NCBI GenBank assembly: GCA_963575745.1
Contig: CAUYUJ010003403.1
Location: 161,315 to 225,314 of the forward strand
Source: Prorocentrum cordatum
Lineage: Eukaryota; Sar; Dinophyceae; Prorocentrales; Prorocentraceae
DNA: 64,000 bases
Direction: 5' to 3'
Shown here: one piece after another, positions 857 to 47,260 of the stretch
Position numbering within the stretch: position 1 is the first letter of the stretch
How the letters are laid out: the number at the start of each line of letters is the position of its first letter
Translations under genes and position numbers: made by a program
The notes under the pieces: generated by a model
Told to the model about the DNA's origin: nothing
The model's input: only the letters and a program-made list of their open reading frames with translations
Database searches by the model: none

Positions 857-3800
857 ATGGAAGATGATGAGACACTCATCTGCTACATTTCTTCTGCAAA
901 CGACACTATCAAGTTCGGGTCGACACAACACCGGACTCATGTCAGTCAGCTCTCGTGCACGCCTGTTGTAAGATCAGCTTTGGACCAGTGCAATGGCAGT
1001 GCGTACGCCAGTCATTCTGTACACGCGGCGGCAGTCATCAAATACATCGGCGAGGTCACGCATATGACAATAATGGATGGGCCAATGCGGGAGCAATTCG
1101 ATCTGTGGAAAGGCATTCACCCAACTGTGCGGCTGTATAGATTTAGTGTTGTCTCTGCAAATTGTTTGGACAGTTTTCAGCCGCTTCAGCAATTCAGCAA
1201 CAGGAAGTATCGCGGAATGGTAACAGAGATGGAGATGGGGCAGCCAGAGAGATTGCTTGAACATATTGTCGGTGATTGGCCGCATGGAGTTCCGAACATC
1301 ACTCTGCGACTGCCCGCTCCATATGCAGTGCTAGTTTCAAAACGAGTGTGGAGGGACATTCTTTTGCCGCATGATGGACATGGAGCAAGATGGTTGCGGA
1401 TACGGCATGATTTCTTGGGGTTGCGACCGCCAGGGCCTCCACTGCGGCTGCCGCTGCGACAACATCAGCATGCCATCGATGGACGCTTCCAGTTTTCATC
1501 TGGGGCGCTGCGAAAGATTGCTGATCAGCTCAGGGCCGCTGCACAACAATATGATCCGACCAATGACATGGACGCAGAAGAGTACAGTGCTCTCGAGAAT
1601 TCGATCCTTCTCCTGGACGCCGTAGCAGTGCAGCTCAGCCCGGCACAGCTTCACAGGCAGATGGTCGACTGGAAGCGTGGAGACATCAATCTTGCTGGAG
1701 GAGATCCAATGTTGAGCAAAATGATGTTCGTCGTGAAGGCGTTCATGCTGGCCAACTTGCTTCGAGACGTTGGCTCCATGAAGGAAGCAATCATGTATGC
1801 GATCAATCTTGCACTACCGCCGGCATTGGCCTCATGCGTCAGGGAGCACGTGAATAATAATACAAAGATCAACGTTAAGAAGTACACGATTTCAAAATGG
1901 AGGATGTTGTTGGATGGTATGCTGATGCTGTATGGCAGGAATCTTGATGATGACCTTTCGGTCGGTGAAGGTTGTATTCGTTTTTTCATGGCGGACTCGT
2001 CAATGCAACGTGGGAGGGACTTTCAGTTGGTCCAAGTCATGTCCCTTCCCAAGTTCAAGGCGGCCGAAATTCTAACAGTCGCTCAGGTCATGATATTGTA
2101 CCGGCGCCAACCGATCGACTTGCTGGACATCAATGGAGATGACGACGGCAACAGTACCGAGGCAAAATGGATGCAGGACTTGACTGACGCGTTCGTGCAC
2201 GACCATTGTCCACCAATCACCTTGGGCTCAGGTGGGACAACGCTGTCTCACAAATTTTTCGCCGTCACATATGCAATGTGGTTGATCTCAGGCAAGACAA
2301 TGCGCATTTTCAAGCGCTTCCTGGATGATCTTTCTGTTGGGACTTCAGACTTCGGAGTCGAGTTTAGTTTATCGAAGGTCATGCCGAAAAGAGCTGTGGA
2401 GCTATTCCCTTGGATGTTTCCAGATGACGCGTTCGAGGTCCCAGACGAACATGATGATCAACAGCAGCTACGTCAAAATGGAGATGCTCTTCTCAGCATG
2501 CAGAGGTCCATCAGCGCGCCAGGGCTACTTCATATCACGCATAATATTGGGAATGATCTTGCATCTTGCTGCCCTGAGCTCGACGAGGCTGTCAGTGGTC
2601 TCGCCGCGGTCGCCAGGTGTCTGCAGCAAGAGTACACGCAATCGAGAATCGTAGAGAGCTGTTTCTCTGGCATCGCATCTTCAGTCTTCAAGCAGAACAT
2701 CCAATCCTTTCAGGGTAAAGTCTACAAAGAACGCTGGGGTACAGTTGCGTTCTGTTGTAAGCAGGTCTTGGAGATAGAACATGCCCTTCGGTCGTGTTGG
2801 AATCTTCGGCGGTACATGGAGATAGCTGAGCGTGGAGGTCGAAAGGACAAGCCGAAGGAGAGCAAAGATATCGCGGAGCTGGACAAGTGCGTCAACTCAG
2901 CAGAGTGGTGGGGCAAAATCATTGTTCTCGATCACCTCTACGAGCTGATCCGCGACTCACTGATATGGGCGGAGGGCTGCCCGTGTCACAGCCACTTGTT
3001 GCGAGCGCTTGCGAAGACAGAGGACCTGGTGGACAATCGCATTTTGAATCGTTGGAAGACGTGCCCTCTGAGAGGCATGCGCCTTTGTGAGTTGGCAGCT
3101 GGCGACTTCTTCACCAATCTTCGAGACCTCAGCCATTTGTCGTCCACTACTCTACTTCGAGAGCTACCGCGAGACTTACACTCAAGTGTCAAGGGGATGT
3201 TGCTTCGGTGTTTTGAGAGAGGCAGGGCTTTCTTAGCATTTCAATTTTCTCTCAAGCTGTGTTCATACACGGAGCCGCCGTGCCTATTGTTTGCTTGCGC
3301 CCACCATGACGCTGCTGTTCAGCGCAGGGCTTTGAAGCAATGCTTGGCTTCATCATGTACTCATCCACGCATCCGTGAGCTGAAATCCGAGCCTCTGCGC
3401 AGCGAAGCTGACCAGTTCATTGCCGGCGCTGACGTGACGCAGCTCGTGAACCTTCAGACGGCCCTGGCGGCGTTGAAGTTCGGGTCCTGCTCCGAGCGAA
3501 AGATTGAAGGTGGGCACGCGCAGGTCAACATCAAGACAGCAGGGAAGCGAAACCGCACTGAAGCTTATGACAGCTTATCTCTTCGATGGAACAAGTATGC
3601 GGCTATGCTGAACAGCTCTGACGGGGATGCAGTTTTGAAGAATATGGCTCAGTGCCTTCAGATGGGCAGCAATCCGAAGATGATGCTGGAAGCACTTGGC
3701 TTGCACTTGCATCCTGGGACGAGGGCTGCTAAGCAGAACTGGGATCCGATCTACCGCAAGATTCTATATCGTTCTGATCCTTGGTCAAAGTATCGGCAAT

Positions 3801-4006
3801 GCGTGCATGTACGAACCCAAGATGACGGCCGAGACGACTCTGGAGGCGATGGAGCTGGGAGCCCCGGCGATGATCCGCTTGCAGTAGGCGATGGCTCTGG
3901 CGGAGCTGAAGTCGGAGGCGGAGATGCTCACGGACATCCAGGACCTCCTGGAGGCGGCGACGGCGATGGCGGAGGACGGACTCGAACTCACACCCATCAA
4001 TGCTGA
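857..4006 (+). CDS. Transposase-like protein, RNase-H-fold (hAT-like) pattern, N-terminal part of a broken gene
   Basis: A 1049-codon intronless ORF. I see a D-S-S-x-Q block near residue 380, an H-I-T-H-N block near residue 559, and an R-W-G-T block near residue 625 followed by a helical Leu/Trp-rich stretch. This order resembles the RNase-H-like core of hAT-type transposases (first acidic residue, C/H block, then RW..), so a role in cut-and-paste DNA transposition is inferred, not shown. A C-x-C-H-S-H cluster lies near residue 711 and an E-G-G-H-A-Q-V-N block near 883. I recall related proteins only from dinoflagellates. From about nucleotide 3800 the frame turns into Gly/Asp-rich low complexity, while the +1 frame becomes protein-like and runs into the next ORF. 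True coding in this frame therefore probably ends near 3800 and the final ~65 residues are out-of-frame readthrough. The start at 857 is the first ATG and begins M-E-D-D-E. Alternative: a host nuclear gene of unknown function. Confidence 0.6.
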   Translation: MEDDETLICYISSANDTIKFGSTQHRTHVSQLSCTPVVRSALDQCNGSAYASHSVHAAAVIKYIGEVTHMTIMDGPMREQFDLWKGIHPTVRLYRFSVVSANCLDSFQPLQQFSNRKYRGMVTEMEMGQPERLLEHIVGDWPHGVPNITLRLPAPYAVLVSKRVWRDILLPHDGHGARWLRIRHDFLGLRPPGPPLRLPLRQHQHAIDGRFQFSSGALRKIADQLRAAAQQYDPTNDMDAEEYSALENSILLLDAVAVQLSPAQLHRQMVDWKRGDINLAGGDPMLSKMMFVVKAFMLANLLRDVGSMKEAIMYAINLALPPALASCVREHVNNNTKINVKKYTISKWRMLLDGMLMLYGRNLDDDLSVGEGCIRFFMADSSMQRGRDFQLVQVMSLPKFKAAEILTVAQVMILYRRQPIDLLDINGDDDGNSTEAKWMQDLTDAFVHDHCPPITLGSGGTTLSHKFFAVTYAMWLISGKTMRIFKRFLDDLSVGTSDFGVEFSLSKVMPKRAVELFPWMFPDDAFEVPDEHDDQQQLRQNGDALLSMQRSISAPGLLHITHNIGNDLASCCPELDEAVSGLAAVARCLQQEYTQSRIVESCFSGIASSVFKQNIQSFQGKVYKERWGTVAFCCKQVLEIEHALRSCWNLRRYMEIAERGGRKDKPKESKDIAELDKCVNSAEWWGKIIVLDHLYELIRDSLIWAEGCPCHSHLLRALAKTEDLVDNRILNRWKTCPLRGMRLCELAAGDFFTNLRDLSHLSSTTLLRELPRDLHSSVKGMLLRCFERGRAFLAFQFSLKLCSYTEPPCLLFACAHHDAAVQRRALKQCLASSCTHPRIRELKSEPLRSEADQFIAGADVTQLVNLQTALAALKFGSCSERKIEGGHAQVNIKTAGKRNRTEAYDSLSLRWNKYAAMLNSSDGDAVLKNMAQCLQMGSNPKMMLEALGLHLHPGTRAAKQNWDPIYRKILYRSDPWSKYRQCVHVRTQDDGRDDSGGDGAGSPGDDPLAVGDGSGGAEVGGGDAHGHPGPPGGGDGDGGGRTRTHTHQC
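3800..3890 (+). other. Frame break: +1 shift plus TAG between two ORF halves
   Basis: Coding character moves from the 857 frame to the 3891 frame near 3800. The codon pair at 3882-3887 is CAG TAG, as if from CAG CAG by one C-to-T change. Both sides of the stop encode matching Glu/Ala/Met/Leu-rich helix. Confidence 0.6.
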
Positions 4007-6623
4007 CCCTCATCATCCAAATCAGCTCGAGAAGGGTTCCGATGCCCTTGCATCGTGTGTGAACTCTTCTGGGTCCGATCTGGTTGATGGGGGTTGTTGC
4101 GTTGATGGGTCTCTGGTTGAGTCCATTCAGGAGGCGGCGGCGGTGGGGGAGACGCGCTGGCAGTCGCTCCTGGCCATGCTCTGCTGCCTCACATGGACTC
4201 TACGTTTCAGGTTCGGAGACTCTCAGTATGGGCTTCAGATCGGGCTGGGGATGGAATTGAACCTGCCATATGCATTCGCATCCATCTTTGAATTGGATGT
4301 GTCGGAAAAAGCTTCTTGGGAGTCCTGGGAGTGGCACGGTTCGACACCGATCCCCAAAACTCGATCAGGCCGATGCCAAAGTCTCCACAAGGGCATCAGA
4401 CATGCAGCTGCAGTGTCACATTTTCTCATGTATCTTCGTGGGATGTCTGACTTGGATCTATCACGGACGTTCTTTTCGATCAGTGCTCCAGTGGGATGCG
4501 TCTCGACGTTGATGGGCATCCTCGCTCCCACGCACGTCATGAAGGAGCCTGTGCCTGAAGTTTGGGACACGGATGTTGTAGAGGCTACAGTCAACTGCGA
4601 CGAGGGCATCCAGAGATTTCTACATGGTGACGACACCAGCTATTTCGTTTTCGGCGTCATCTCGAAATACCCTGTTTGTGCGAAGAGAGCTATCCCAGGG
4701 GAGCTTACTCGATCTGATGTGGGCATTGCGGTGCATCGATTGGTCAGCGGTACCACCCAACCCGAAGATGAAGACGCTACTTTGATGATATCGCCTGCAC
4801 CAGCAAACATCATGACCTCCACAATGACGGAGTCAGACTTCACAATTCCATCTCAACCGCTGGTGTTGCAACCTGACTTGCTGCCTCTCGCATCTGGCCC
4901 GGAAGCATTGGCTTGGAGTCCGCATGATGCGAAAATATGCTACCGCTGGGACTGCAGATCTTTTCCAGTTGGCCACCGTATGCGAACCCACAAGTTCTCT
5001 GACTGCATGTGGTCCCATCTTGAACAACTTGTTGGCGGGGATGAAGAGCAAGATAGTTCAGTGTCTGGCGAACTCGAGGCGGACGACGACGAGCTGAAGA
5101 TCTGCCATGATGAGGGCCTCCTTGTACGACGCGTCGCAGGGGATCGAGTATTCTACAAGTTGACTGATGCTGGGAGCAAAGCTGTGATGCCGTGTACGCA
5201 TCTATGCAAGCCGACTCGTTTCATGTCTAACGTCAATGAGGAGTTGATGCTCCGCGACCTCTGGGAGCTGTTGGTCACAAAGGAGAACGAAGGATGGCAA
5301 TGTCATGTTGTTGCGACAAAGGGAGCCGCCCAGCGTGCGAAAGAGAATCCTTACAGAGTTGGTGGGGAGAAGAAGTGGTACCTGATCAAGGGGGACACTG
5401 CAGCTGACGTGAAAAAGTCGTACTTGCAATCCCTTCTCTTGGCAGTGCCGGGCACGTGCGTTCCACATTTGGCTTCGCTCAATACATACAAGCAGTTGTT
5501 GGATCCAGAGTGGCAGCCTCGAAAGCAAAAGCGGAAGGCTATTACAATGGAGGAGGGAGTTGATGATTGGGGGATGATTGAAGATCCGCACGTGGCCAAG
5601 AAACCAAAGGGCCCGCGGCGCAAGCGCGCTCTCCATGATGGCCTCCCGTGGAGCGATGATGAGTCAGTCGACCTGGTGGCTCTTGAGGACCCGGGCGGGG
5701 ATGCAGCAGATCAACCAGAGTCCGACGCTGGATCGAAGGGCCACGACGAGCATAGCGGTTTCGATCTACCTGAGTCGGACCCACCACAGAGCTCTTCGAG
5801 CAGCAGTTCATCCAGCAGTAGCAGCAGTAGTAGCAGCAGTAGCAGCAGTAGCAGCAGCGACAATGACGACCAAGGTGGCTCTGCAGTCCCAGCCGCTGCA
5901 GTGCCAGAGCCAGCTGCACATGCCGATGGGGCACCCGCATTCCTGCCATTCCCAAAAGACATGGCTGGACAAATTCGTTGGGGTGCTGGCTTTCTTACTC
6001 CGCGCAAGCGCGACGGTGAAGTCATTGGTTGGCAATGCACGTGTCGCAATCCTAACCATGGAGCGGCACGGCCTTGCACCAAAGAGATCAGGAACACTGT
6101 CTCAGGCAGCAATGATGCGACTCAGCATATGCTGAAGTACTGGGCGATGCTATCCACTGAAGCGGCTGGCAAAAATGATCATCGCGCACTGTGGGATTCG
6201 CATGTTGTCCCTGCTTGGCGAGGCGACGCACTGCCACCTCTACCACTACTCGAAACAATGATGCATGCCAGTCTCCCTGCAGGTCCCGCTCCGCCGCTGG
6301 AGGCGCCTGCGGCGCCGCGTGCCGTTATTGACTTGTTGGATGAGCCTGATGACGTATTGGGCGGGGTGGTTCTTGGCTCTGGTGTTCCAGCTGAAGTCCA
6401 CGCCGCTATGATTGATCTCGCTAGGAATGGCGTGATGCCAATAACAACGCAGGAGCAGAGGAAGCGAAACAGCATGTCGGAGCACAGTCAGTATATCACC
6501 CCGCACTTCCTCACACCGGCTTTGAGGTGGGGCTATATCCATCCGAATCTCAAGGCGCCCGAGGGCTACAAGTGGAAGAACAAGGGAGGAGGCACGTGGC
6601 TGCTCTCAGTCAAGGGCGGCTAG
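3891..6623 (+). CDS. C-terminal part of the same transposase-like gene; Ser-rich, with Cys/His cluster
   Basis: A 910-codon ORF that opens just after an in-frame TAG (3885-3887) and overlaps the previous ORF by 116 bases in another frame. The same frame upstream of the stop (about 3809-3884) encodes a similar acidic, helical Glu/Ala/Met/Leu-rich stretch, so ATG 3891 is unlikely to be the original start. Visible features: a helical N-terminus, an acidic region, a basic patch (K-x-K-x-K near residue 545), a run of about 25 serines (residues 634-656), a C-x-C..H..C cluster near residues 715-730 that could bind zinc, and a Trp/Gly-rich C-terminus ending in K-G-G. I recall that C-terminal pattern in other dinoflagellate multicopy proteins. 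No catalytic domain is recognised. The most economical reading is one ancestral ORF of about 1,900 codons covering 857-6623, damaged by one frameshift and one nonsense change. A short spliced intron is the main alternative. Confidence 0.6.
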   Translation: MALAELKSEAEMLTDIQDLLEAATAMAEDGLELTPINADPHHPNQLEKGSDALASCVNSSGSDLVDGGCCVDGSLVESIQEAAAVGETRWQSLLAMLCCLTWTLRFRFGDSQYGLQIGLGMELNLPYAFASIFELDVSEKASWESWEWHGSTPIPKTRSGRCQSLHKGIRHAAAVSHFLMYLRGMSDLDLSRTFFSISAPVGCVSTLMGILAPTHVMKEPVPEVWDTDVVEATVNCDEGIQRFLHGDDTSYFVFGVISKYPVCAKRAIPGELTRSDVGIAVHRLVSGTTQPEDEDATLMISPAPANIMTSTMTESDFTIPSQPLVLQPDLLPLASGPEALAWSPHDAKICYRWDCRSFPVGHRMRTHKFSDCMWSHLEQLVGGDEEQDSSVSGELEADDDELKICHDEGLLVRRVAGDRVFYKLTDAGSKAVMPCTHLCKPTRFMSNVNEELMLRDLWELLVTKENEGWQCHVVATKGAAQRAKENPYRVGGEKKWYLIKGDTAADVKKSYLQSLLLAVPGTCVPHLASLNTYKQLLDPEWQPRKQKRKAITMEEGVDDWGMIEDPHVAKKPKGPRRKRALHDGLPWSDDESVDLVALEDPGGDAADQPESDAGSKGHDEHSGFDLPESDPPQSSSSSSSSSSSSSSSSSSSSSSSDNDDQGGSAVPAAAVPEPAAHADGAPAFLPFPKDMAGQIRWGAGFLTPRKRDGEVIGWQCTCRNPNHGAARPCTKEIRNTVSGSNDATQHMLKYWAMLSTEAAGKNDHRALWDSHVVPAWRGDALPPLPLLETMMHASLPAGPAPPLEAPAAPRAVIDLLDEPDDVLGGVVLGSGVPAEVHAAMIDLARNGVMPITTQEQRKRNSMSEHSQYITPHFLTPALRWGYIHPNLKAPEGYKWKNKGGGTWLLSVKGG
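5790..5858 (+). repeat. AGC/AGT codon repeat encoding poly-serine
   Basis: In-frame run of AGC, AGT and TCC codons inside the ORF at 3891-6623, likely replication slippage in a disordered linker. Confidence 0.9.
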
Positions 6624-22127: not shown

Positions 22128-23170
22128 CGAGGTGGGGGGTCCCGAAAATTGCAATCCCCATGGAGCCTCTCAGGCGGTGGGGCGTCAAACGGGGGAGCTA
22201 GATGGGGGTTGGGGCCGGGGCGAGAATTGCGAGGTGGTGGGTCTCAAGAACAATAGTCCCGGTGGGTGCCTCTCAGGCGGTGGGTGTCAGACGGGGTTGC
22301 TACAAGGGGGGGGGGTGGGAGGTGCGAAGAACAGTTGTCCCGATGGGAGCCTCTCAGGCGGCGGCCTGTCAGACAGGGGGGGTAGAACGGGGGGGGGCCG
22401 GGGCGAAGATTGCGAGGTGGGGGTTTCCAAGACCAGTAGTCCCGATGGGGGCTTCTGAGGCGGTGGGGTGTCAGACGGGGGGGCTAGCATGGGGGGGAGC
22501 CCGCGCGAAAAGTGGGAGGGGGGGGGTCCCCAGAACAGTAATCCCCATGGGGGTTTCTCAGGCGGTGGGGTGTTATTTTGGGGGCCTAGAGGGGGGGGGC
22601 TGGGGCGAGCGATCGCGATGGGGGGTCTCGAGAACAGTAGTCCCGATGGGGGCTCTCAGGCGGTTGGGCGTCGGTCGGGGGGGGTCTCGAAATTGCGAGA
22701 TGGGGGGCTCGAAGAACAATGGACCCGATGCGGGCTTCTGCGGCAGTGGGGCGTCGGACGGGGGGGCTAGAAAGGAGGGGGCCTGGGCGAAAACTGCGAG
22801 GTGAGGGGTCCCAGTCCCGGTGGGGGCCTCTCAGGCGGTGGGGCGTCAGACGGGGGGGCGAGAGCCAGGCCGAAAACTGCGAGGTGGTGGGTCTCAAGAA
22901 GAGTAGTCCCGATATGGGGCCTTGGGGGGCGATGGGGTGTCAGACGGGGGGGCCAGAACGGGGGGGTCTCGGCGCGAGGGGGTTTGGCCCTGAGGACATT
23001 CTCAGGCGGCGGGGTTTCAGACGGGGCCAAACTTGCGAGGTGGGGGATCCCAATATCAATAGTCCCGTCGGGGGCCTCTCAGGCGGCGGGGCGTCAGACG
23101 GGGGGACTAGAACGGGGGGCGGCCGGGGCGAAAATTGCGAGGTGGGGGCTCCCAAGAACAGTATACTCTA
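22128..23170. repeat. ~93-bp satellite A, left part of a split array
   Basis: About 11 units sharing AAGAACAGTAGTCCCGATGG, CTCTCAGGCGGTGGGG(T/C)GTC, AGACGGGGGG and GCGAAAATTGCGAGGTGG. The array stops in the middle of a unit and resumes in phase and in the same orientation at 30892. Confidence 0.9.
23154..23170 (+). repeat. Left copy of 17-bp target-site duplication
   Basis: AAGAACAGTATACTCTA, identical to 30875-30891. It directly precedes the spliced-leader-bearing insertion, with two extra bases CA between. Confidence 0.85.
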
Positions 23171-23172
23171 CA

Positions 23173-23194
23173 TCCGTAGCCATTTTGGCTCAAG
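23173..23194 (+). other. Genomic dinoflagellate spliced leader (DinoSL), complete
   Basis: Exact 22-nt match to the conserved leader (D-CCGTAGCC...GGCTCAAG, with D = T). Leaders are added post-transcriptionally, so a copy at the head of a gene in the genome marks a retroposed mRNA. No splice donor GT follows it, so this is not an SL RNA gene. Confidence 0.9.
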
Positions 23195-23209
23195 CCATTT
23201 TGGCTCATG
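23195..23209 (+). other. Truncated relic spliced leader
   Basis: CCATTTTGGCTCATG, the 15-nt 3' part of the leader with one change, placed directly after the full leader. This form arises when the AG inside an older genomic leader (CCGTAG) is used as acceptor in a new round of trans-splicing. Confidence 0.85.
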
Positions 23210-23239
23210 ACCTTGACTCCCAAGGTTGAATTGATTTAG

Positions 23240-24253
23240 ATGTTACTCATGCCTGAACGCAGGCGTTTCTTTTCGAAAGATCAGCCCTACTCGTTCCGCG
23301 CTGTCCACCCCAACCGTGCTCTACGTTGTTTCGGAGAAGTGTTCCGTAGATCGGCGTTCGAGAAGGTTGCGGACAAACCTGCTGTTCTCTTCGATATAAA
23401 GACCGATGCGCATGAAGCAGTTGACCAAGTAGAAGAAGGTGGCATGCCTGAACGCAGGCGCTTCTTTCTGAAAGATCAGCCCGACTTGTTCCGCGCTGTC
23501 CACCCCAAGCGTGTTCTACGTTGCTTCGGGGAAGTGTTTAGTAGATCAGCGTTCGAAACGGCTGCTGCCAAAACGACTTCGCAATTATCGCCCGCTGGTC
23601 TCCTCGATGCAAACAACGATGCGCATGAAGCAGCTGACCAGGTATATTACGCATGTCAGCAAGTAGAACGAGTTGGAGCGTTTCTGAGCCACGTTTGGGC
23701 AGCGGATCGTGGACTCAAGGTTCTGGCATTGTATTATTACTTGAACATTGAGTCGGCTGTCATTGCTAGCGTCGGTGCTTGGATTGTGACAATTTGCATA
23801 ATGGTGATCATCAACGGCCCATTTGGAATGACAGCGCAACCAGGTATGCTCATGGTATTCTTGGGCGTCCCAATATTGGTATTTGTTGTCGTGTTGTTTT
23901 GTGGCCATATGGTTCGAGTTCCCATTCAAACCATGTGGCTGGATAAGCTGAGCATCCATCAGACTCGCAAGGACCTACAGATTAAGGGTGTCACTGCCAT
24001 TCCAGAATTCGTTGCAAAGTCGGATCGGATGATTGTCCTGTGGAGCGATACATATTTCGAACGCTTGTGGTGCAATGCCGAGGTCGCATCCTTTGCAGCG
24101 ATTAACGGAGCTGCCAGGCTTGACATGCTTCCTCTTTGGTTTGCGCCATGGATCAGTGTAACAATGACTCTAAACGTTGTCAGCATCATTGTATCCAGCA
24201 AGCTTTTCGTTTGGATCCCCCGTGCAGCAGAACATAATACATTGCTTCAGCAG
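23240..24253 (+). CDS. Multi-pass membrane protein with TIR/HET-like domain, exon 1
   Basis: First exon (338 codons) of a family I recognise from dinoflagellates; its function is not established. Residues 4-68 and 69-133 are a tandem duplication (both begin M-P-E-R-R-R-F-F, offset 195 nt). F-L-S-H-V-W near 148 starts the TIR/HET-like part. Two hydrophobic helices follow (about 171-197 and 205-228). Then W-L-D-K-L-S-I-H-Q (about 234-242), a V-L-W-S-D-T-Y-F-E-R-L-W-C block (about 265-278) and another hydrophobic segment (about 296-322). The continuous frame runs on to a stop at 24280, but CAG|GTATTG at 24251-24259 is a good splice donor, and joining to 28704 keeps frame and reading sense. Start 23240 lies 30 nt after the relic leader; M at 23249 is an alternative. 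The intracellular localisation and any signalling role are inference. Confidence 0.7.
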
Positions 24254-24329
24254 GTATTGTTGAACAACCCTCTTTGTTGACGTTTTCGTTGTCTTCGTTG
24301 GCGTAGGCTGCACCTTCACTGTCGCGTAT

Positions 24330-27300
24330 TTGCTGGAACGTGTTTCACTACCTCAAGTTTCACATGAGCCTCCACACTCCGACTCCCACTCCCGCCTCGA
24401 CGCCCCAGGCCTCCAACTCGTAGATTCCCACTGCGGCCCGAAAGACTCAGGCAACGAAGGTCATCATGTTGCCCAGCCTCACGCCCCGCCTCACCGTGGG
24501 AGAGAAGGAGGAGGACTACGAGCCTACCGCGTCGTCTCCGGCGACGTCCCGCTGTGCATCCTAAGGCAGCGGCGCAATCCACCCGACTCCAGCCTGGCTG
24601 GCTCCGACACGCAGAATGTTTCACTACAGGCGGAAATAGCGACATCACAACATACTCCCGACCTCACCCACGACCTCCAACCTTCCACCTCCAATTTTCG
24701 ACCTCCACCTATCGACCTCCAACCTCCACCCACCGACATCAAGAGTACGGATTTTGCCCCTCAGCATCCGCCACCAGTTCTTGACCTTCAGTCCTGCATC
24801 TCCAGCGTTCGACCTCCACCTAAAGACATTCAACCTCACCTGACAGACCTCCAACTGTCAGCTTCCGACTCCCAGCATCCACCTCCAGCTATCGACCTCC
24901 AATTTTCCACCTCCAGCTGTCGACCTCCACCCATCGACCTCCAACCCCAATTAACCGACCTCCAGCGTCCAGAGTCCGGCACCCACCATCCGCCACCAGC
25001 TGTAGACTGCACCTCCAGCGTGCGACCTCCACCTATGGACCTCCAACCTCACCAGACCGACCTCCAGCTGCCAGCTCCCGACCCCGAGCATACACCGACA
25101 GCTATTGACCTCCAATCTTCCACACCCAACTTTCGACCTCCACGTAACGACTTCCAACCTCAACCAATCGAGCTTCAGCATCCAGATTCCGACTCCCAGA
25201 ATCCACCAGCAGCTGTCGACCTCCAAGCTTCCACCTCCAGCTTGCGACCTCCACCGAACGACCTCCACCTACCGAATTCCACGCCGGATACGACATTTAC
25301 ATTATACCACAAAAACGTGCGTGGACTTATTTCGGAAGATCGCGTTGAGGAGCTTTTCGAAGAATTGCGAGGTACACGATGGGATTTTATAACACTGAAC
25401 GAGACATGGCGGCAAGAGAAGCATGAACATTGGTCATCCAAAGATGGGCATATATTCATGGGATCCGGATTCGACGAACAACGTTGTGGAGTTGCTATTC
25501 TGGTACACAACAAGTTTGCGAATGCTATCCGGTGCTTCCAACCAGTCAACGAAAGAATCTGCTATGCCGACATTGTGGTGAGTGGTCTGAGATTGCGCAT
25601 CGTTTCAGCTTATTTCCCACATAGCGGATACAGTGACAAGAGCATTCAGTCAATGTACAGCATCCTTGCAGAGACCCACCAGCATGCCCCCACACAGAAG
25701 CTCGCCTTCATCATTGGAGCGGATTGCAACGCACGTGTTGGACAGCGACAATCCGAGGACGACCGGCGCACCGTCGGGCCATGTGGTTATTGCGACGTCA
25801 ACGTGCGAGGCCAGTGGTTGAAGAATTGGGCGTCCACGGAAAGACTACGCATTATGAACACCTACTTCTACAAGCACGCATGCAACGTGACCACTTACAC
25901 ATCGCCCGAACAATTGCAACACCAAATTGATTTCATCTTGGCCAGCAAGCCCATATGGCGAGCAGCTGCCGATTGCGAGGCAACGACTGACATCGACCTC
26001 GGCTCCGACCACAAAGCGGTACGATTCACATTCCGAGCACCCGGACGACAACGACACAGCAGCCAGCAGGACACACCAATCCGACAAGGGAAACAACGTC
26101 GACCACGACGGAGCCGTCCAGCTTGGCCCCCGGACGACATCCCTGCATACCGCCATGCTCTCACAGACAAGTTAGACGAACTATTACTCGAGACCCGGCT
26201 CCAACTCAAATGCGAGAACATCGAGGCCGCCATCGCCGAGACACTACTGGGCCAACAACAGCCAGAGCCATCCGGCGCACTCAGCATCCAGCAAGCGACA
26301 ACGACCAGCACTGTTGTGCGACTACTCCGGGACAGACGGGACACACCAACAACCGACACGACAGCACGAGCACACATCAACAAGACGATCCGCAAGGAGC
26401 TCAGGGCTATCAAACGAGCCACTCGCACAGCCGCCATCGATCGAATTCTCACCCAATACCGAGATTTAAAACGAATCAGCGGGATCAAGAGTTACAAGAA
26501 GAAGGATTTGATACCAGGCATGGTGGATGCCAGTGGCCAAACCCAGCACGACAGGGGGGCCATAGCAGACGTGTTTGCAGATTTCTATGCGAAGTTGTAC
26601 GGCGACGCGCAGAAAGATGCCGAAGAATGCCAGTACCACTGTCAAAACGAAGCAGTTTCGATCCCACCATTCACTGACAGTGAACTGTCAGATGCTCTAC
26701 GTCAGTTGAAAACAAAGCGGGCTCCAGACACGCATGGGATCGCAGCAGAGATGTTGAAAGAAGGCGGAAGTACACTCAAGAGAGTCTTGTTGGACACGTT
26801 CAACAACATTTTACGTCCTGACTCACCCACTCCCTCCAGCTGGAAACACACAGTGGTAAAGGTACTGCATGAGAGTGGTGACCCAATGCGTCCGGAGAAT
26901 TACCGACCAATCGCAAGCATCCCAATGTTGTATAAGCTGTTCTCCAAATTGTTATGCAACCGCTTGGGAGATACATTAGACGAGCAGCAAAGCCCAGACC
27001 AGGCGGGTTTCAGACCCAAGAGAGGAACAACCTACCATTTGTTCACAGCGACGAGCTTGCACGATATCACAGACGAGTGGCAGGTCCCGCTCTGGATCGC
27101 AGCCATTGATTTCAAGAAGGCTTTTGACACCGTGACGCACGCGAGCATATGGGAATCTCTTACAGAACAGCAAGTTCCGACTCCGTACATCACTTTGCTC
27201 CAGAAGCTGTACAGCCAACAAACAGGAGCCATCCACACCGACCGTCGCAGCACAAACTTCGACATCGAGAGGGGCACGAAACAGGGCGACCCACTCAGCT

Positions 27301-28442
27301 CACTGCTTTTTAATTCTGTTTCCGAACATGTGATGCGGGTGGTGAAGAAGAAGTGGGCAGCACGGGGATTTGGAGTCAAATTGCATGCCCATGGTGGCGA
27401 GCTCTTGAATAACTTACGTTTCGCCGACGACATCCTCCTAATCGCGCACTCCAGCAGCGACGTTGCAACTATGCTCTCCGACCTCAGCACAGAAGCGGCG
27501 AAGACAGGCCTCCACCTTCATCCAGACAAGACCAAAATTCTGCACAATGGACACCGGCGCAAACGAACGATACAAACACCGAGCCACGTATTAGTGCACG
27601 ACATGAAGATCGAAGTGTTGCCGCCATGCCGCTCCACCAAGTACCTCGGCCGAAAGCTGCAATTCAGCGAGTGCCACGAGACCGAAGTGGAAAACCGAAT
27701 TTCTGGAGCGTGGAGAAAGTTCCATTTACTCAAACAGGAGCTTACGGGAAGAAGCTATTCTATAAATAACCGAATTCGGCTTTTCCAGGGAACAATTACG
27801 CCGACAATGCTGTGTGGATGTGAGACATGGACGGTCACTCAGGAGTTGGAAAACAGAATTCGCAGAACGCAGAGACAGATGCTTCGCATGATCATCAGAA
27901 CGCCTCGAAGAAAGAAGCTGGAGTCATCAGAAGCAGATCCCCGACGCAATCCCGATGGCGACAACGACGGCGACTACCAGGAAAACGACGGTTCTTCAAT
28001 TACCACAGGCAGCGGAGGGGATGTTCACAGCGGACAACCACTTCCAGCCGCGGATGCTGACCAATTCCAGGAAGAAGATGCCCTTGAGCCTTGGCCGGAT
28101 TGGATCCGTCGTGCAACGCAACACGCCGAACATAGTATTTCAAATTTGGGGGTCGCAGATTGGGTTGCCACAATCAAAAATCGTAAATGGACATGGTTGC
28201 AAGAAATGTGTACTAACAGTACGAAAGAATGGGCACAGCGAGTGTTACAATGGGAGCCACGAAATGATGCACACATACATGCACAACGCCGTGTTGGACG
28301 GCAAAAGACCAGGTGGTGGGACGACATACTATCCTACATTAAACGGCGTGTCGAAGACGCGCCACAACATGTTGCAGGGTTACTACGACTAGCGGGGGCG
28401 GACACATGGGGCAATTTGGAGTCTGGGTACACACAACGGTGA
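24330..28442 (+). CDS. LINE polyprotein: AP-like endonuclease and reverse transcriptase
   Basis: A 1370-codon ORF. Residues about 110-318 are a Pro-rich tandem repeat (D-L-Q-P / R-P-P-P-x-D-L-Q). About 320-565 is an apurinic-like endonuclease: N-V-R-G, L-N-E-T-W (catalytic Glu), G-A-D-C-N-A-R and a final S-D-H-K-A-V. About 800-1080 is the reverse transcriptase: Y-R-P-I-A-S-I-P, Q-A-G-F-R-P-K-R-G, A-I-D-F-K-K-A-F-D, G-T-K-Q-G-D-P-L-S and the catalytic F-A-D-D (about 1031). The C-terminus has a Trp-rich region with R-W-W-D-D-I, often seen in dinoflagellate LINE ends. No RNase H or Cys/His knuckle is evident. All key residues I can check are present, so the protein could be active. The enzyme would nick target DNA and prime cDNA synthesis. 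ATG 24330 is simply the first in frame; the true start may be later. Confidence 0.85.
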   Translation: MLERVSLPQVSHEPPHSDSHSRLDAPGLQLVDSHCGPKDSGNEGHHVAQPHAPPHRGREGGGLRAYRVVSGDVPLCILRQRRNPPDSSLAGSDTQNVSLQAEIATSQHTPDLTHDLQPSTSNFRPPPIDLQPPPTDIKSTDFAPQHPPPVLDLQSCISSVRPPPKDIQPHLTDLQLSASDSQHPPPAIDLQFSTSSCRPPPIDLQPQLTDLQRPESGTHHPPPAVDCTSSVRPPPMDLQPHQTDLQLPAPDPEHTPTAIDLQSSTPNFRPPRNDFQPQPIELQHPDSDSQNPPAAVDLQASTSSLRPPPNDLHLPNSTPDTTFTLYHKNVRGLISEDRVEELFEELRGTRWDFITLNETWRQEKHEHWSSKDGHIFMGSGFDEQRCGVAILVHNKFANAIRCFQPVNERICYADIVVSGLRLRIVSAYFPHSGYSDKSIQSMYSILAETHQHAPTQKLAFIIGADCNARVGQRQSEDDRRTVGPCGYCDVNVRGQWLKNWASTERLRIMNTYFYKHACNVTTYTSPEQLQHQIDFILASKPIWRAAADCEATTDIDLGSDHKAVRFTFRAPGRQRHSSQQDTPIRQGKQRRPRRSRPAWPPDDIPAYRHALTDKLDELLLETRLQLKCENIEAAIAETLLGQQQPEPSGALSIQQATTTSTVVRLLRDRRDTPTTDTTARAHINKTIRKELRAIKRATRTAAIDRILTQYRDLKRISGIKSYKKKDLIPGMVDASGQTQHDRGAIADVFADFYAKLYGDAQKDAEECQYHCQNEAVSIPPFTDSELSDALRQLKTKRAPDTHGIAAEMLKEGGSTLKRVLLDTFNNILRPDSPTPSSWKHTVVKVLHESGDPMRPENYRPIASIPMLYKLFSKLLCNRLGDTLDEQQSPDQAGFRPKRGTTYHLFTATSLHDITDEWQVPLWIAAIDFKKAFDTVTHASIWESLTEQQVPTPYITLLQKLYSQQTGAIHTDRRSTNFDIERGTKQGDPLSSLLFNSVSEHVMRVVKKKWAARGFGVKLHAHGGELLNNLRFADDILLIAHSSSDVATMLSDLSTEAAKTGLHLHPDKTKILHNGHRRKRTIQTPSHVLVHDMKIEVLPPCRSTKYLGRKLQFSECHETEVENRISGAWRKFHLLKQELTGRSYSINNRIRLFQGTITPTMLCGCETWTVTQELENRIRRTQRQMLRMIIRTPRRKKLESSEADPRRNPDGDNDGDYQENDGSSITTGSGGDVHSGQPLPAADADQFQEEDALEPWPDWIRRATQHAEHSISNLGVADWVATIKNRKWTWLQEMCTNSTKEWAQRVLQWEPRNDAHIHAQRRVGRQKTRWWDDILSYIKRRVEDAPQHVAGLLRLAGADTWGNLESGYTQR
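24650..25285 (+). repeat. CGACCTCCACC-type minisatellite in LINE 5' coding region
   Basis: Degenerate ~30-75-bp units with GACCTCCA(A/C)CC and TTTCGACCTCCACCTA cores, read in frame as D-L-Q-P and R-P-P-P repeats. Confidence 0.8.
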
Positions 28443-28703
28443 GTGTCCATGGTTACGCGGCTAATATTCTAGTGCCGTCATCGCCGTCTGCTTCCTCCTC
28501 CCCCTCTTTGTCCTCCTTCCAGACAATGTGATGTATCGAATATTGTTGTTGTCGCATTGTTTCACCAATAGCGGCGCCCCGGCGCCGCCCTGCAGTGCCC
28601 CCGCGGCACCTTGACTGCAGGCCGCTTGTCCGCTTGTCCGCTTGTACCCACTTGGTATGCTACTCGCACCAAGTTAGACATACAGTCAAACATGTTGTCT
28701 CAG
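28443..28703 (+). other. LINE 3' end and intron tail
   Basis: C/T-rich stretch with CTTCCAG (28514-28522) and a CGCTTGTC triplication (28621-28645). No gene. Confidence 0.4.
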
Positions 28704-29510
28704 TGTAGAGAGTTCGCGTTCGGAAGAGCGAAGTGTAGATTCGAGAGCGATCGTGAGGTCGTTGCGGATATGATCAAGTATCTGTGGAAGGACTACGAAT
28801 ACCCCATTGTAGCATTTGACGAATTCGTCAATGAGAAGCTCAGCGACCACATAGAACATTCTACAGGGTCAGCCACACTTATCCCATACCGTTGTTGCCT
28901 GTTGTTGATGTTGCCGTGGTTGTTTTCTTCGGCTTTTAATGTATTCGGGTGTGATGGAATGCCGCGCGAAATGGCTGCAGAGATTGAGCTTGGAGCAGGA
29001 AGTCAACTTGCCCAACAGATGCTACCTAAAGCAGCAACCTGCGCCATAAGTTTTTTCGGTATATATCCTACGGTTTACCCCGTGAGGCTCTATCTCATGA
29101 GCGTCGCGCGATCTAAATTCGAATTGTACCCTTTCGCCCGTGTTGTCACCGAGCTCTGCGCAGTCATTGCTTCGTTCGCGTGTATGGGATTTCACGAAGG
29201 GTTCGCGGCAGGGCTCATCACTGCAGCGAGTTCCGAATTCTTCAACGGCAACACGAGAGACATTTGTCTTTGGATGGCCGGTCTCGTGCTCTACCTCGTT
29301 CTCCTCATCTTGTGGAATTTGCATCTGTTCCCAACGAGACTGGATCCCGACGATGATCTATTTGAGCCAGGAGAGTTCCTTCGAATGCCAACTGGGTTTG
29401 TTCGCCAAGGGAGTATGACTTCGTTATACGGTCAATTCGAAGAACTTGTGGATTACCGACCGCGTCATCACGCATCAGGCTCATCAGGCGATGCTGAATC
29501 CCAGTCGTAA
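28704..29510 (+). CDS. TIR/HET-like membrane protein, exon 2 (C-terminal part)
   Basis: Continuation of the gene at 23240-24253. TCTCAG|TGT at 28698-28706 is an acceptor in matching phase (0). The spliced reading gives L-L-Q-Q|C-R-E-F followed by A-K-C-R-F-E-S-D-R and F-D-E-F-V-N-E-K-L, the block that normally follows the TIR-like part in this family. Several hydrophobic segments follow (about 28896-28950, 29035-29090, 29148-29220, 29270-29325), then an acidic cytosolic-type tail ending at TAA 29508-29510. The open frame begins at 28611, but the residues before 28704 look like intron translation. No domain beyond the family pattern is recognised. Confidence 0.65.
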   Translation, partial: CREFAFGRAKCRFESDREVVADMIKYLWKDYEYPIVAFDEFVNEKLSDHIEHSTGSATLIPYRCCLLLMLPWLFSSAFNVFGCDGMPREMAAEIELGAGSQLAQQMLPKAATCAISFFGIYPTVYPVRLYLMSVARSKFELYPFARVVTELCAVIASFACMGFHEGFAAGLITAASSEFFNGNTRDICLWMAGLVLYLVLLILWNLHLFPTRLDPDDDLFEPGEFLRMPTGFVRQGSMTSLYGQFEELVDYRPRHHASGSSGDAESQS

Positions 29511-30874
29511 AACGAGAAACCTACATGACGCATGGTTACTGCAATACGTGCCCGGGCGCAGACAGCTGCGGCCTCCTGCCGCGCCACGTGCGCCAGTTTG
29601 CAAGCGGCGCGAGTGATGGAGGAGTGGTTTCAAGGAGTTACGCTTGGGGGGACATTCTGGGGAGGGTGGTGCAGTAAGTGAAATCACGGCTCGCTCCACC
29701 GGCCACGTTCTCTCCGCCGCCACGCAGCGTACATCGTTCTAAGTTTAACTAGTAGCCAGACTGTTGTGACGATTGGAGTCAGGCATGATTAATCGGGAGC
29801 TCGTCCATGTCCTGCCATGATTGCTACAACTGCAGTTTACTACTTCGTTTATGGATACTTATGGCCGTTACCAGTGCTCCTACTGTCATTAGTTTTGCTA
29901 TTTCCGTCACTACTGTCAGTGCCATGTCCGAGCCCGCCACACGGCGGCCAGACCCTACCACGCGCCTCCCGTTGTCACGGATGTTTACGGGGGGTCATAC
30001 AACATGTTGCTTTTCACAATTTCACATGGAAGCAAGGGTTCCCGGAGCTGTGGGTGAGATCCCCGTGGCCTGGAGGACTCAGTGCCACCCGCGGACGTCT
30101 CGGTATGCCGTTGATCGGTGGACGCCCCTGGCACATTCGCCGACCTTCCTAGGCCTCCAAGAGGCCGCCCAGCCATATTTCACGTCGTTGCCGCGGTCTG
30201 GCAGCGTGAACTGCTTTTATTTTGGGTCGAGCTCCCAAGCTCCCCCCAGTTTGTTTGTATTGGTCTAGCCAAGCAGGCACCATTTCGCGTGGATCTGAGC
30301 GACAGACGACATGGGGTGCCGCCCCTCCAATTTTGCGGCAATCGCGGGCGCGTTGGCGTTGATTGTTCTTCGATCCCGCCACATCTTTCAGTGCCTGCCA
30401 GGCGCTCGCCCGTCCCCCTCAGAGCCTTAGAGGAAGACAAAGAAGTCCTGACATGGGTGCGCTGCAGGAGTTTCTGGCTTAGGTGATTTTCTGCGGAGGC
30501 TCCGCAGACGAGAGCCGCTAATTAGGTGCTCCATTTCTTCATCCTGATCGAAGACAGATTGACCCTGCTAGAACTCGTCGATCCCCAAACGATCGAAGGG
30601 ACTGCGCCGATAGGGCGCGAAATTGTTCCGGATTGCGCCCGGTATTGCCTTTCATTTTGGGTCGAGCTCCCGAGCTCCCCCCCCAGTTGTGGGTTATAGT
30701 TTCCTATGTGTCGGCAGTTGCGGACAGAAGAATGCAGAGACTTCGCTACTTCGCGGCAGTTGCGCACACTTTCACACCGAAGTTGCGCGATGTATCATAA
30801 CCGGATTCCGCTTGCAAGGGGCAGCTGATCATCCGCTTTCTTGCCATGCTTTGCTGCGTCTGGGGGGAACAAAA
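29511..30874 (+). other. Downstream region of the retrogene (3' UTR or later inserts)
   Basis: About 1.36 kb between the stop codon and the A-rich 3' end. It contains two copies of a TTTTGGGTCGAGCTCCC-AGCTCCCCCC block (about 30218 and 30655). A small frame at 29817-30152 is Leu-rich then Trp/Gly-rich, without recognised homology. This is long for a dinoflagellate 3' UTR, so later insertions are likely. Confidence 0.4.
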
Positions 30875-30891
30875 AAGAACAGTATACTCTA
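30875..30891 (+). repeat. Right copy of 17-bp target-site duplication
   Basis: Identical to 23154-23170. Preceded by ACAAAA and followed directly by TAGTCCCGATGGGGGC of satellite A. Confidence 0.85.
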
Positions 30892-31768
30892 TAGTCCCGA
30901 TGGGGGCTTTGCAGGGGGTGGTGCGCCAGACAGGGAGGCTAGAACGGGGGGGGGGCGGGGCGAAGATTGCGAGTTGGGGTCCCAAGAACAGTAGTCTCGA
31001 TGGGGGCCATTCAGGGGGTGGGGTGTCAGACGGGGGAGTGAGAACGGGCGGGGGGCTGGGTCGAAATTTGCGAGGTGAGGGCGCGGGGTCCCGAGACCAG
31101 TGGTCCCGATGGGGGCTCTCAGGCGGCGGGGCGTTCTCAGGCGGTGTGGTGTCAGACGGGGGGGCTAGAACGGGGGGGGGGGCGGGGCGAAATTCCACGG
31201 TGGGGGGTCTCGAGAACAGTAGTCCCGATGGGGGCTCTCAGGCGGTTGGGCGTCAATCGGGGGGGCTAGAACGGGGGGGGGGGGGGCCAGTGCGACAATT
31301 GCGAGATGGGGGGCTCGAAGAACACTGGGCCCGATGTGGGCTTCTGAGGCAGTGGGATGTCGGGCGGGGGGGCTTGAGCGAGGGGGGTGTGCGGGCCGAA
31401 AATTGCGAGGTGGGGGGTCCCAAGAACAGCAGTCCCGGTGGGGGCCTTTCAGGCGGCGTGGCGTCAGACGGGGGGCTAGAACGGGGGAGAGCCAGGCCGA
31501 ACATTGCGAGGTGGTGGGTCTTAAGAAGAGTAGTCCCGATCGGGGTCTCTGAGGCGGTGGGGCGTCAGACGGGGAGGCCAGAACGGGGTGGAGTCGATGC
31601 GAAAATTGCGACGTGGGCAGCCCCGAGAACATTCTCAGGCGGTGGGGTGTCTGCGGGGGGCTAGGACGGGGGGGGGCCGGGCCGCCGAAAATTGCGAGGT
31701 GGGGTGTCCCAAGAGCAGTGGTCCCGTTGGGGGCCTGTTAGGCGGTGGGGTGTCAGACGGGGGGGCTC
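30892..31768. repeat. ~93-bp satellite A, right part of the split array
   Basis: About 9-10 units of the satellite seen at 22128-23170, same orientation, resuming in the phase where the left part stops. Confidence 0.9.
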
Positions 31769-39569: not shown

Positions 39570-39656
39570 AACCCGACCCCTACCACCCCTAACGCTAATC
39601 CTCACCCTTACCCTGACCCCCAACCCTAACCCCGAACCCTACCCCTAGCCCTAAAC
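39570..39656. repeat. Degenerate telomere-like CCCTAA tract (interstitial)
   Basis: Repeats such as CCCTAAC, CCCTTAC, CCCTGAC, ACCCTAA and CCCTAAA, resembling a decayed (CCCTAAA)n array. Confidence 0.6.
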
Positions 39657-41135
39657 AGTGCTCACTACTCATTACGCACTACTCATTACCCACTACTCAC
39701 TACTCGCTACTCACTACTCACTTCTCACTAATCACTACTCACTTCTGACGACTCACTACTCACTACCCACTACTCACTACCTACTACCCACTACTCACTA
39801 CTCCCTACTCACTACTCACTACTCACTACTCACTGCTCACTATCCACTACTCAATACTCACTACTCACTACTCTCTAAACACAACTCACTACCCACGACG
39901 CACAAATCACGCATCATTACTCACTACCCACTAACCATTATCCACTGCTCACTAATCACTACTCACACTTCACTATTTACTACCCACTGCCCACAACTCA
40001 CTACTCACTATCCACTACTTGCTACTCCCTGCTCGCTGCACAGTACTCACAACTCACTACCCACTACTCGCTACTCCCTACACCGTAGTCGCTACCCAAT
40101 GCGCACCACTCACTACTACTCACTACGCACTAGCTCCCACTACTCACTACTCACTACTCCTTACTCACTACTCCCAACTCACTACTCTCTACTCACTACT
40201 CACTACCCAGTACTCAATTCTCCCTACTCACTGAACACGACTCAGTGCCCACGACTCGCTACTCACTAAGCACTGTTCATTACCCACTATCCACTACCCA
40301 GTACTCAGTACTGAGTATTACAGTTCACTACTCACTACTCACTGCCCACAACTCACTACTCACTATCGGCTGCTCGGTACTCGCTACTCCCTACTCCCTA
40401 CACTGTACTCACTGCAACTCGCAACTCTTTACTCCCTACTCGCTACCCACTAATCACTAGTCACAAGTCGCTACGCTACTCACTTCTCACTATTCAGTAC
40501 TCACTATTCACTACTCACGACCCACTACCCACTACGCACGACTCACTGCTCACTACGCAATATTTGCTACACACTACGCGCTACTCACTACTCACTACCC
40601 ACTACTCCCTACCCCCTACTCGCTAGTCACTAGTTACACGTCGCTACTCACTACTCACTGTTCAGTACCCACTACTCACAACCCACGACTCACTACTCAC
40701 TACCCATTACTCACTACTCGCTACTCCTTACGCACTACCCACTGCCCAATACTCAATACCGTTTTCGCACTTCTCCTTACACACTACTCACTACTCAGTA
40801 TTCAGTACTCATTACTCACTACTCACTGCTCACTACTCGCTATTCCATATTCGCTACTCACTACTGACTACTCCCTCCTCACCACTCACTATTCACAGTG
40901 CCCTATTCGCGACTCCTTATTCACTACTCGCTACTCCCTACTCGCTACTCACTACTCACTGCCCGCACCCCACTACCCACTAAGCACTACTCACTATTCA
41001 CTACTCACTACTCATTGCGCACTACTCACCACTCCTGACTCCTCTTCACTGCTCGCTACTATCTACTCACTACTCACTATTCACTATTCACTACTCACTA
41101 CACAGAACTATCTAGTCACTACTTAGTAATCACTA
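39657..41135. repeat. CTCACTA heptamer array, ~1.48 kb
   Basis: Long degenerate 7-bp array (CTCACTA) directly following the telomere-like tract. All minus-to-plus frames read as Thr/His/Tyr/Ser/Leu repeats and are not genes. Confidence 0.95.
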
Positions 41136-45220: not shown

Positions 45221-45589
45221 CCCCCCGTCGGGGCCAGAATCCTCGTGAGGGTCGTCGTTTTTTGGCCCTCCCAGGCGTCGAAAAAGACCCTCCTGACGAC
45301 CCGCGGGGTGCCCTCTCCAGGCCCAGGGGGAGGGGGTAGGGGGAGGGGTAAACCCCTCCCCGAAGGGGAAGAAGGGGGGTTGAGGACAGAGGGGGCTCGC
45401 TAAACCACTCACGCCCTAAAGGGCTGGTGGGAGTACAACCCCCCGCCTTCTTCCCGGACGGCCTGATCTTGCTCAGGCTCCCTGAGGCCTGACCATGCAC
45501 TTTGCCCTTGCTCAGGCTCCCCTGAGGCCCAGGGCCAGTCAGTGCTATGTGCCGCCCTGGCATAGCTAGACGCGTGTTTACTCGAGCGT

Positions 45590-47260
45590 GCCCAACACTT
45601 TCGTGTTCCGCCCGCCCGACCCGACCCGACCCGCGCGTCAGGGTCTGCCTGGCCCGACCAGACCCGTCCCGCCCGTTAGGGTCTGCCCGCCCGACACGAC
45701 CCGCCCGTTCGGGTTCTCGCGTGCTTGTTCGAGCGCGCCCCACACTTTAGTGTCCCGCCCGCCTGTCCCGACCCGCCCGTTAGGGTCCGCCCGACCCGAC
45801 CAGACCCGTCCCGCCTGTTAGGGTCCGTCCGCCCGACCCGACCCACCCGTTAGGGTTCACGCGTGCTCGCTCCGGCATGCTTCACATTTTAGTGTCTAGC
45901 CCGCCCGACCCGACCCGCCCGTTAGGGTCCGCCCGACCCGACCCGACCCGTCTCGCTTAGGGTCCGCCCGCCCGACCCGACCCGTCCGTTAGGGTTCACG
46001 CCTGCTCGCTCCGGCGCGCCCCACACTTTACGTGTCCCGCCTGCCCGACCCGACCCGCCCGTTAGGGTCCGCCCGACCCGACCCGACCCGACCCGCCTGT
46101 TGGGCTCCACCCACCCGACCCAACCCGCCTGTTAGGGTTCCCGCGTGCTCACTCGAGCGCGCCCCACACTTTAGTGCCCCGCCCGCCCGACCCGACCCGC
46201 CCGTTAGGGTCCGCCCGGCCCGGCCCGATTCGACCCGCCCGTTAGGGTCCACCCGCCCGACCCAAACCAGCTGTCAGGGTTCACGCGTGTTCATTAGCCC
46301 GCCCGACACGACCCGCCCGCGCCGTAGGCCTACCCTAGGCATACCCCTAGGCCTTCCTCCTAGGCTAGCCTAGGTCTGCTCCTAGGCCGTTCCCTTAGAA
46401 ACACCCTAGGCTTACACCTAGGCCGCCCGCCCGACACGACCCGACACGACCCGCTGCGTCATATTTTAGTGCCCCGCCCGCTCGACACGACCCGCCCGTT
46501 AGGGTCCGCCCGGCCCGACCCGACCCGTCCCGCCCGTTAGGGTCCGCCCGCCCGACCCGACCTGCCCGTTCGGGTTCACGTGTGTTCATTCGAGGGTGCG
46601 TCACATGTTAGTGCCCCGCCTGCCCGACCCGATCCGCCCGTCAGGGTCCGCCCGGCCCGACCCGACCCGTCCCGCCTGTTAGGGTCCGCCCGCCCGACCC
46701 GACCCGCCCGTTCGGGTTCACGCGTGCTCGCTCTGGCGTGTCCCACAATTTAGTGTCCCGCCCGCCCGACCCGACCCGCCCATTAGGATCCGCCCGGCCC
46801 GACCCGACCCCTCCCGCCCGTTAGGGTCCGCCCGCCCGACCGACCCGCCCTTTTAGGGTTCAGAGCGACCCCCACTTTAGTGTCCTGCCTGACCCGTTCC
46901 GCCCGTAAGGGTCCGCCTGCCCGACCCGACCCGCCCGTTAGGGTTCACGCCTGCTCGCTCGGGCGTGCCCCCGACCCGCCCGTTAGGGTTCACGCGTGTT
47001 CACTCGAGCGCGCCCCGCACTTTTCGTTCTCCGCCCGTCGACCCGACCCGCTCGTTAGGTTTCACGCGTGCTCGTTCCAGCGCGCCTTACATTTTAGTGC
47101 TCCGCCTGCCCGACCCGACCCGCCCGTTAGGGTTCACGTGTTCTCACTCGAGCGTGCCTCACACTTAAGTGCCCCACCCGCCCGACCCGACCCGCCCGTT
47201 ACGGTCCGCCCGACCCGACCCGAGCCGTTCCGCCTGCCCGACCCGACCCGCCCGTGGGAG
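45590..47260. repeat. ~145-bp GC-rich satellite E (CCCGACCCGCCCGTTAGGGT)
   Basis: About 12 higher-order units. Each has several CCCGACCCG and CCCGTTAGGGT(C/T) pieces and one TTCACGCGTGCTCGCTC..CACACTTTAGTGTCC block. Confidence 0.9.
46315..46430. repeat. CCTAGG palindrome cluster
   Basis: About nine CCTAGG (or near) sites in 115 bp inside satellite E. Confidence 0.85.

Follow-up and report, generated by a model that had tools for sequence, protein, structure and literature searches.

A probable retrocopy of a trans-spliced dinoflagellate mRNA, interrupted by a LINE, within a satellite array of Prorocentrum cordatum

How does a coding sequence headed by a spliced leader come to lie in the middle of a satellite array? 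This question is raised by a locus of the dinoflagellate Prorocentrum cordatum on contig CAUYUJ010003403.1 (assembly GCA_963575745.1). We analysed a stretch of 64,000 nucleotides from this contig (positions 161,315 to 225,314, forward strand), called the window in the following, with position 1 as its first letter. Very likely, a dinoflagellate mRNA that itself came from a retrogene has left a retrocopy at 23171-30874; this copy would have been produced by copying of the type carried out by long interspersed nuclear elements (LINEs), and a younger LINE would have inserted into it afterwards. The whole insert has a length of 7.7 kb and, when the LINE is left out, would represent an mRNA of about 3.4 kb. 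A tandem leader, a duplication at the edges, a restored satellite register, homology to the host gene on both sides of the LINE and the domains of the LINE can be read from the sequence itself.

The insert is flanked by the two parts of one satellite array:
22128..23170, forward strand: left part of a degenerate, G-rich satellite array of about 101 bp per unit (self-alignment; cyclic alignment to the unit consensus)
30892..31767, forward strand: right part of the array, whose phase matches that of the left part if the insert is omitted (self-alignment; cyclic alignment)

The joined flanks were aligned cyclically to a 102-bp consensus made by eye and showed 80% identity along the path. Consensus base 8 is directly followed by base 9 across the join; therefore, the phase of the satellite is restored, with TATACTCTA as extra bases at this point. 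The 19 whole units, including the joined one, have a median length of 101 bp (mean 97, range 61-119) instead of the approximately 93 bp given in the original prediction, which had been made from the letters of this DNA. Its statement that the satellite stops at 23170 and resumes in phase at 30892 agrees with the cyclic alignment. The check proposed there, namely that joining the flanks should restore one satellite unit, was run too, and gave a unit of 109 bp including nine bases private to the edges, which is inside the spread of the neighbouring units.

Both edges of the insert carry the same sequence:
23154..23170, forward strand: left copy of the 17-bp target-site duplication (exact match to 30875-30891; the last nine bases are private to the two edges)
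30875..30891, forward strand: right copy of the 17-bp target-site duplication (exact repeat match)

This 17-bp duplication had been predicted, and AAGAACAGTATACTCTA indeed has two exact copies only in the window, at 23154-23170 and 30875-30891, bracketing the insert. With up to three mismatches allowed, one further match was detected in the window, at 30984 with three mismatches (background of 100 shuffles: mean 0.04, largest 1). Long words are common to the satellite flanks anyway: of 855,985 pairings of a cut point in one flank with a cut point in the other, 121 show a direct repeat of at least 17 bp. For this reason most weight is carried by TATACTCTA, nine bases inside the repeat which are shared by the two edge copies but have no further occurrence on either strand of the window. 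Since the right copy continues directly into the satellite, these bases were most simply present in the target unit before the insertion, with the left copy as its duplication.

The left edge leads directly into a spliced leader:
23171..23172, forward strand: two extra bases (CA) between duplication and leader (sequence)
23173..23194, forward strand: complete 22-nt dinoflagellate spliced leader (DinoSL; exact match)
23195..23209, forward strand: 15-nt relict spliced leader with one mismatch, adjoining the leader (sequence match)

The sequence TCCGTAGCCATTTTGGCTCAAG is a perfect DinoSL and begins 2 nt past the left repeat copy. A search with 21 of the 22 nt of the consensus quoted in PMC6050394 gave no mismatch at 23173-23194, as expected from the predicted exact leader at the opening of the insert, and no match in 100 shuffles. 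Leader and relict at 23173-23209 agree with the published 37-nt DinoSL-DinoRL signature. In PMC12014239, this tandem serves to recognise transcripts that derive from retrogenes; relic DinoSLs are described in PMC7245778, too. The relict lies directly behind the leader, and therefore the source gene of the inserted mRNA would itself have been a retrocopy. Read in this way, the tandem leader indicates at least two rounds of recycling. The DNA-encoded leader and its relict are located upstream of a coding sequence, as in DinoSL retrogenes, with the host start codon at 23240 and a 5' untranslated region (UTR) of 67 nt including the leader. A second leader-like match at 18057 (three mismatches) overlaps a GCCATCTTGG tandem repeat and was not counted as a leader.

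The leader also bears on the question whether the gene copy reached the satellite by duplication at DNA level or by an assembly join, with the edge repeats being nothing but shared satellite sequence. In favour of this reading, the flanks are repetitive and their units share long words; the window contains a scaffold gap (a run of 100 N), though far off at 61401-61500, and our evidence is confined to the window. However, nine of the 17 duplicated bases are found nowhere else in the window, one edge lies within two bases of the start of the mature leader, and the satellite register is restored. Furthermore, it is only at the RNA level, or in sequences copied from RNA, that a mature leader is joined to the 5' end of a gene. 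We therefore regard a duplication or assembly join as highly improbable. There is good support for the view that a trans-spliced mRNA was retroposed here and that the 17-bp repeat is its target-site duplication.

At the right edge, the insert ends in a region presumably derived from the 3' end of the mRNA:
29511..30874, forward strand: sequence presumed to be the 3' UTR of the retroposed mRNA, with ACAAAA at its end (placed between the host stop codon and the right repeat)

The end in front of the right repeat reads GGGGGGAACAAAA, and the ACAAAA noted ahead of the right copy in the earlier analysis is present. A 34-bp motif (TTTTGGGTCGAGCTCCC...) was found twice in the presumed 3' UTR, at 30214-30247 and 30649-30682 (435 bp apart, 94% identical).

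Target duplications of LINE-type processed pseudogenes are in the range of 7-20 bp, those typical of integrases of long terminal repeat (LTR) retrotransposons comprise 4-6 bp. The duplication detected here is exact, 17 bp long and includes the private bases; it has the variable, fairly long size expected of LINE-type target-primed reverse transcription. Judged by these sizes, the duplication together with the A-rich edge fits LINE priming better than an LTR integrase. Alternatively, the mRNA might have been inserted via the LTR-retrotransposon pathway by template switching and integrase. Section 7 of PMC6050394 gives the responsible retroelement class in dinoflagellates as unknown and prefers LTR elements of the Ty1/copia type, on expression grounds. 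Against this pathway, the duplication exceeds the integrase range, and the A-rich 3' edge and the complete 5' leader fit target-primed reverse transcription. Comparison of the insert with the window by blastn revealed repeats internal to the insert only and no repeat pair at its two ends, so that no LTR pair was seen. Insertion by the LTR route is thus decidedly unlikely.

What kind of mRNA was copied? The frames starting at 23240 and ending at 29510 are two halves of one protein:
23240..24333, forward strand: 5' part of the host coding sequence, encoding a TIR-like protein (reading frame open at 23240 and disrupted somewhere in about 24234-24293; homology to protein P0001)
28638..29510, forward strand: 3' part of the host coding sequence, in a single frame to the stop codon (homology to P0001)

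Both halves were used in a protein search, in which 12 of 8000 scored candidates were recognised as relatives. The best of them, P0001, is a continuous environmental protein of 654 amino acids from JGI contigs of at most 2957 bp. In tblastn comparisons, 322 of 332 residues of the 5' half and 273 of 289 residues of the 3' half were identical to P0001. For the whole host sequence this applies to 626 of the 651 residues compared, with four pieces compared apart. The relatives include one protein of Prorocentrum cordatum and one with taxid 39447, Gymnodinium catenatum; both organisms are dinoflagellates. The Pfam domain TIR_2 scored 22.6 bits in the host frame (E 1.5e-4), which is below the curated cut-off of 28, and for this reason we call the protein TIR-like only. 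At E values up to 0.01, the 12 relatives contain TIR_2 (9 proteins), HET (2) and TIR (1). The host proteins are rich in hydrophobic segments, as judged by eye. None of six peptide patterns for relatives of P0001 was matched in viral_contigs, and no part of the window reached the gathering score of an Rfam family. In the host protein, the N-terminal region is encoded twice in tandem (23248-23431 and 23443-23644, 78% identity at DNA level); P0001 contains both of these copies, P0002 and P0003 one only.

Between the two halves, the host gene is interrupted by a second element:
24334..28637, forward strand: nested non-LTR retrotransposon (LINE), length about 4.3 kb, with edges placed to within a few bases (Pfam domains, homologues, break of P0001 homology)
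24330..28442, forward strand: open reading frame of the LINE, 1370 amino acids in the mechanical listing, with its first codon still host sequence (endonuclease and reverse transcriptase)

The LINE frame contains Exo_endo_phos (4.2e-8), RVT_1 (4.1e-35) and Exo_endo_phos_2, all above the curated cut-offs. Endonuclease and reverse transcriptase are thus encoded in one frame, as is characteristic for non-LTR retrotransposons. In total, 113 homologous proteins with E values of at most 0.001 were found among 8000 scored, most of them environmental LINE proteins; the identity was at most 52% among the matches listed. In a quick tree of 46 rows, with several long branches and an arbitrary root, the LINE groups with P0013-P0020 (support 100); its neighbours are other environmental elements, and the insect ones are more distant. 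The 3' end contains three CCGCTTGT units, the last of them probably host sequence, and has no A tail. Hairpins predicted at this end (z -2.01) have to be considered marginal, as 8 of 200 shuffles fold as well.

Behind the LINE, the coding sequence of the host continues where the homology to P0001 had broken off. Besides the LINE, no intron-like break was found in the comparison with the protein sequence of P0001; a lack of introns is not demanded of DinoSL retrogenes, and intron-bearing ones are reported in PMC6050394. A location of the LINE inside an intron (GT...AG with matching phase, 24254/28703, by eye) was considered and rejected. P0001 has coding sequence over part of this putative intron, and the LINE therefore lies in coding sequence. 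Hence the 7.7-kb insert is most likely not a single mature mRNA as first proposed, because 4.3 kb of it are a LINE. The original prediction is supported in part, with good support for the retroposition of a trans-spliced mRNA; it had recognised neither the host gene nor the nested LINE nor the relict leader.

It might also be that the LINE was already present in the parent gene and was carried within the trans-spliced mRNA of its host, the whole LINE-bearing transcript of 7.7 kb being retroposed in one event. We consider this unlikely. The outer duplication brackets everything, and the LINE happens to be read in the same frame as the host codons right before it, both in line with a single event. 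On the other hand, P0001, the closest relative, has no LINE at the corresponding point, and full-length reverse transcription of 7.7 kb is generally less likely than that of 3.4 kb. A younger LINE would also agree, if weakly, with the finding that its frame is open over endonuclease and reverse transcriptase in a host sequence whose own frame is broken. If the composite of 7.7 kb were real after all, the recycling of leader mRNAs would be a second route of LINE spread, via a leader-headed host-LINE transcript. At 24300-24340 the LINE is in frame with the last host codons, leaving a short host-LINE read-through open; this continuity is probably a one-in-three coincidence.

The differences to P0001 may give an impression of the age of the copy. 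Judged by P0002-P0004, and with small numbers, the 25 residue differences fall on the window side in 7 cases and on the P0001 side in 7 cases, with 11 undecided. Another comparison, which included one LINE residue and omitted a few residues at the junctions, gave 620 of 646 identical residues and a distribution of 8, 8 and 10, leaving the conclusion unchanged. A copy dead for a long time should show an excess of changes on its own side. There is no such excess on the window side, and therefore the divergence probably arose mostly while the lineage was functional. Insertion and decay of the window copy are probably recent. The copy is interrupted by the LINE and shifted in frame in the stretch just before it; consequently it is most likely a pseudogene and presumably has no present function.

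These results may be combined as follows. An earlier retrogene would have carried a genomic spliced leader, and its transcript would have been trans-spliced at the AG inside this old leader, giving the leader-plus-relict tandem. This mRNA, polyadenylated and about 3.4 kb long, may then have been copied by a LINE-type enzyme where one of the satellite units had received a staggered nick. This nick would have been at a T-rich point (bottom strand TTCTT/GGG), with priming on the A tail. Copying would have reached the very 5' end of the mRNA, and cleavage of the second strand 17 bp away would have created the duplication. Afterwards, the coding sequence would have received another LINE, one with CCGCTTGT repeats at its end, and the frame was presumably lost nearby. 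Target-primed reverse transcription is the mechanism we infer. The order of the two insertions is suggested by the open LINE frame, the broken host frame and the lack of the LINE in P0001. The nested LINE was probably not the source of the enzyme, as it does not itself end in poly(A). No other LINE was seen in the insert in a reverse-transcriptase scan covering eight frames of the window.

Several observations weigh against this scenario. TATACTCTA occurs in no other satellite unit, and its presence in the unit before insertion has to be assumed. Two extra bases (CA) precede the leader, the A tail comprises just 4-6 bases running into the duplication, and folding at the 3' terminus of the insert is unremarkable (z 0.14). 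P0001 is a protein from JGI contigs which may represent the parent locus, another paralogue or another species. For the LINE, by eye no target duplication of its own was clear beyond 1-2 bases at the homology break; a blunt insertion or a small loss at its edges is possible, and non-LTR retrotransposons usually, though not universally, have such a duplication. Finally, one locus alone does not establish a mechanism.

Elsewhere in the window, a long degenerate array of 7 bp (CTCACTA, about 210 units) is located at 39604-41135, directly behind a short telomere-like ACCCTAACCCC stretch. Another satellite of about 142 bp, made of CCCGACCCG and CCCGTTAGGGTCC blocks, occupies 45570-47234. Two long overlapping frames (1049 and 910 amino acids) at 857-6623 gave no Pfam match at E 0.01; for the open reading frame 857-4003, one distant homologue only (29% over 41%) was found among 7992 scored candidates.

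The recycling of mRNAs in dinoflagellates is already well known, and the value of this copy is a mechanistic one. DinoSL retrogenes or recycled cDNAs were described by Slamovits and Keeling 2008 and Song et al. 2017 (via PMC6050394) and by Haro et al. 2025 (PMC12014239). PMC6050394 gives recycled mRNAs as 22.3% and 23.2% of the genes in two Symbiodinium genomes. As to the agent, LTR and non-LTR elements are both named as candidates in PMC12014239, and LINEs are argued for in the case of leader-carrying endogenous viral elements (PMC10235124). Literature searches for target duplications revealed no title on dinoflagellate retrogenes, by which we do not claim that such duplications are absent from print; the term 'target site' has no occurrence in the texts of PMC6050394, PMC10235124, PMC11453091, PMC7245778, PMC3229502 and PMC12014239. 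A copy which landed in a satellite retains a readable target, and the 17-bp duplication and the A-rich edge of the present one point to LINE-type priming. Such a clean integration site makes the mechanism of mRNA recycling in dinoflagellates testable. Satellite arrays could be used for a genome-wide survey of these scars, which could settle the class of the responsible element.

Compared with the dinoflagellate TIR-like proteins P0001-P0012, both host halves match along their length, but the window copy is interrupted and frame-shifted. The nested LINE shares with the endonuclease-bearing LINEs P0013-P0020 the endonuclease, the reverse transcriptase and a similar C-terminal part in one frame, whereas its long proline-rich N-terminal part is unmatched and its 3' end lies in CCGCTTGT repeats. 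Processed pseudogenes mediated by LINEs of the mammalian L1 type have an mRNA copy complete to the 5' end, an A-rich 3' end and a target duplication in common with our locus. In contrast to them, the window copy possesses a trans-spliced leader and a very short A tail, and the nested LINE has no A tail, so that the responsible LINE is probably not the one seen here. With the DinoSL retrogenes the copy shares the genomic spliced leader and the 15-nt relict in a 37-nt tandem upstream of the coding sequence, and the repeated rounds of recycling, too. Unlike those genes, it is broken and holds a nested LINE. Whereas such scars are not reported in the parts of those papers available to us, the scars of integration are readable here in the 17-bp duplication, the A-rich end and the register of the satellite.

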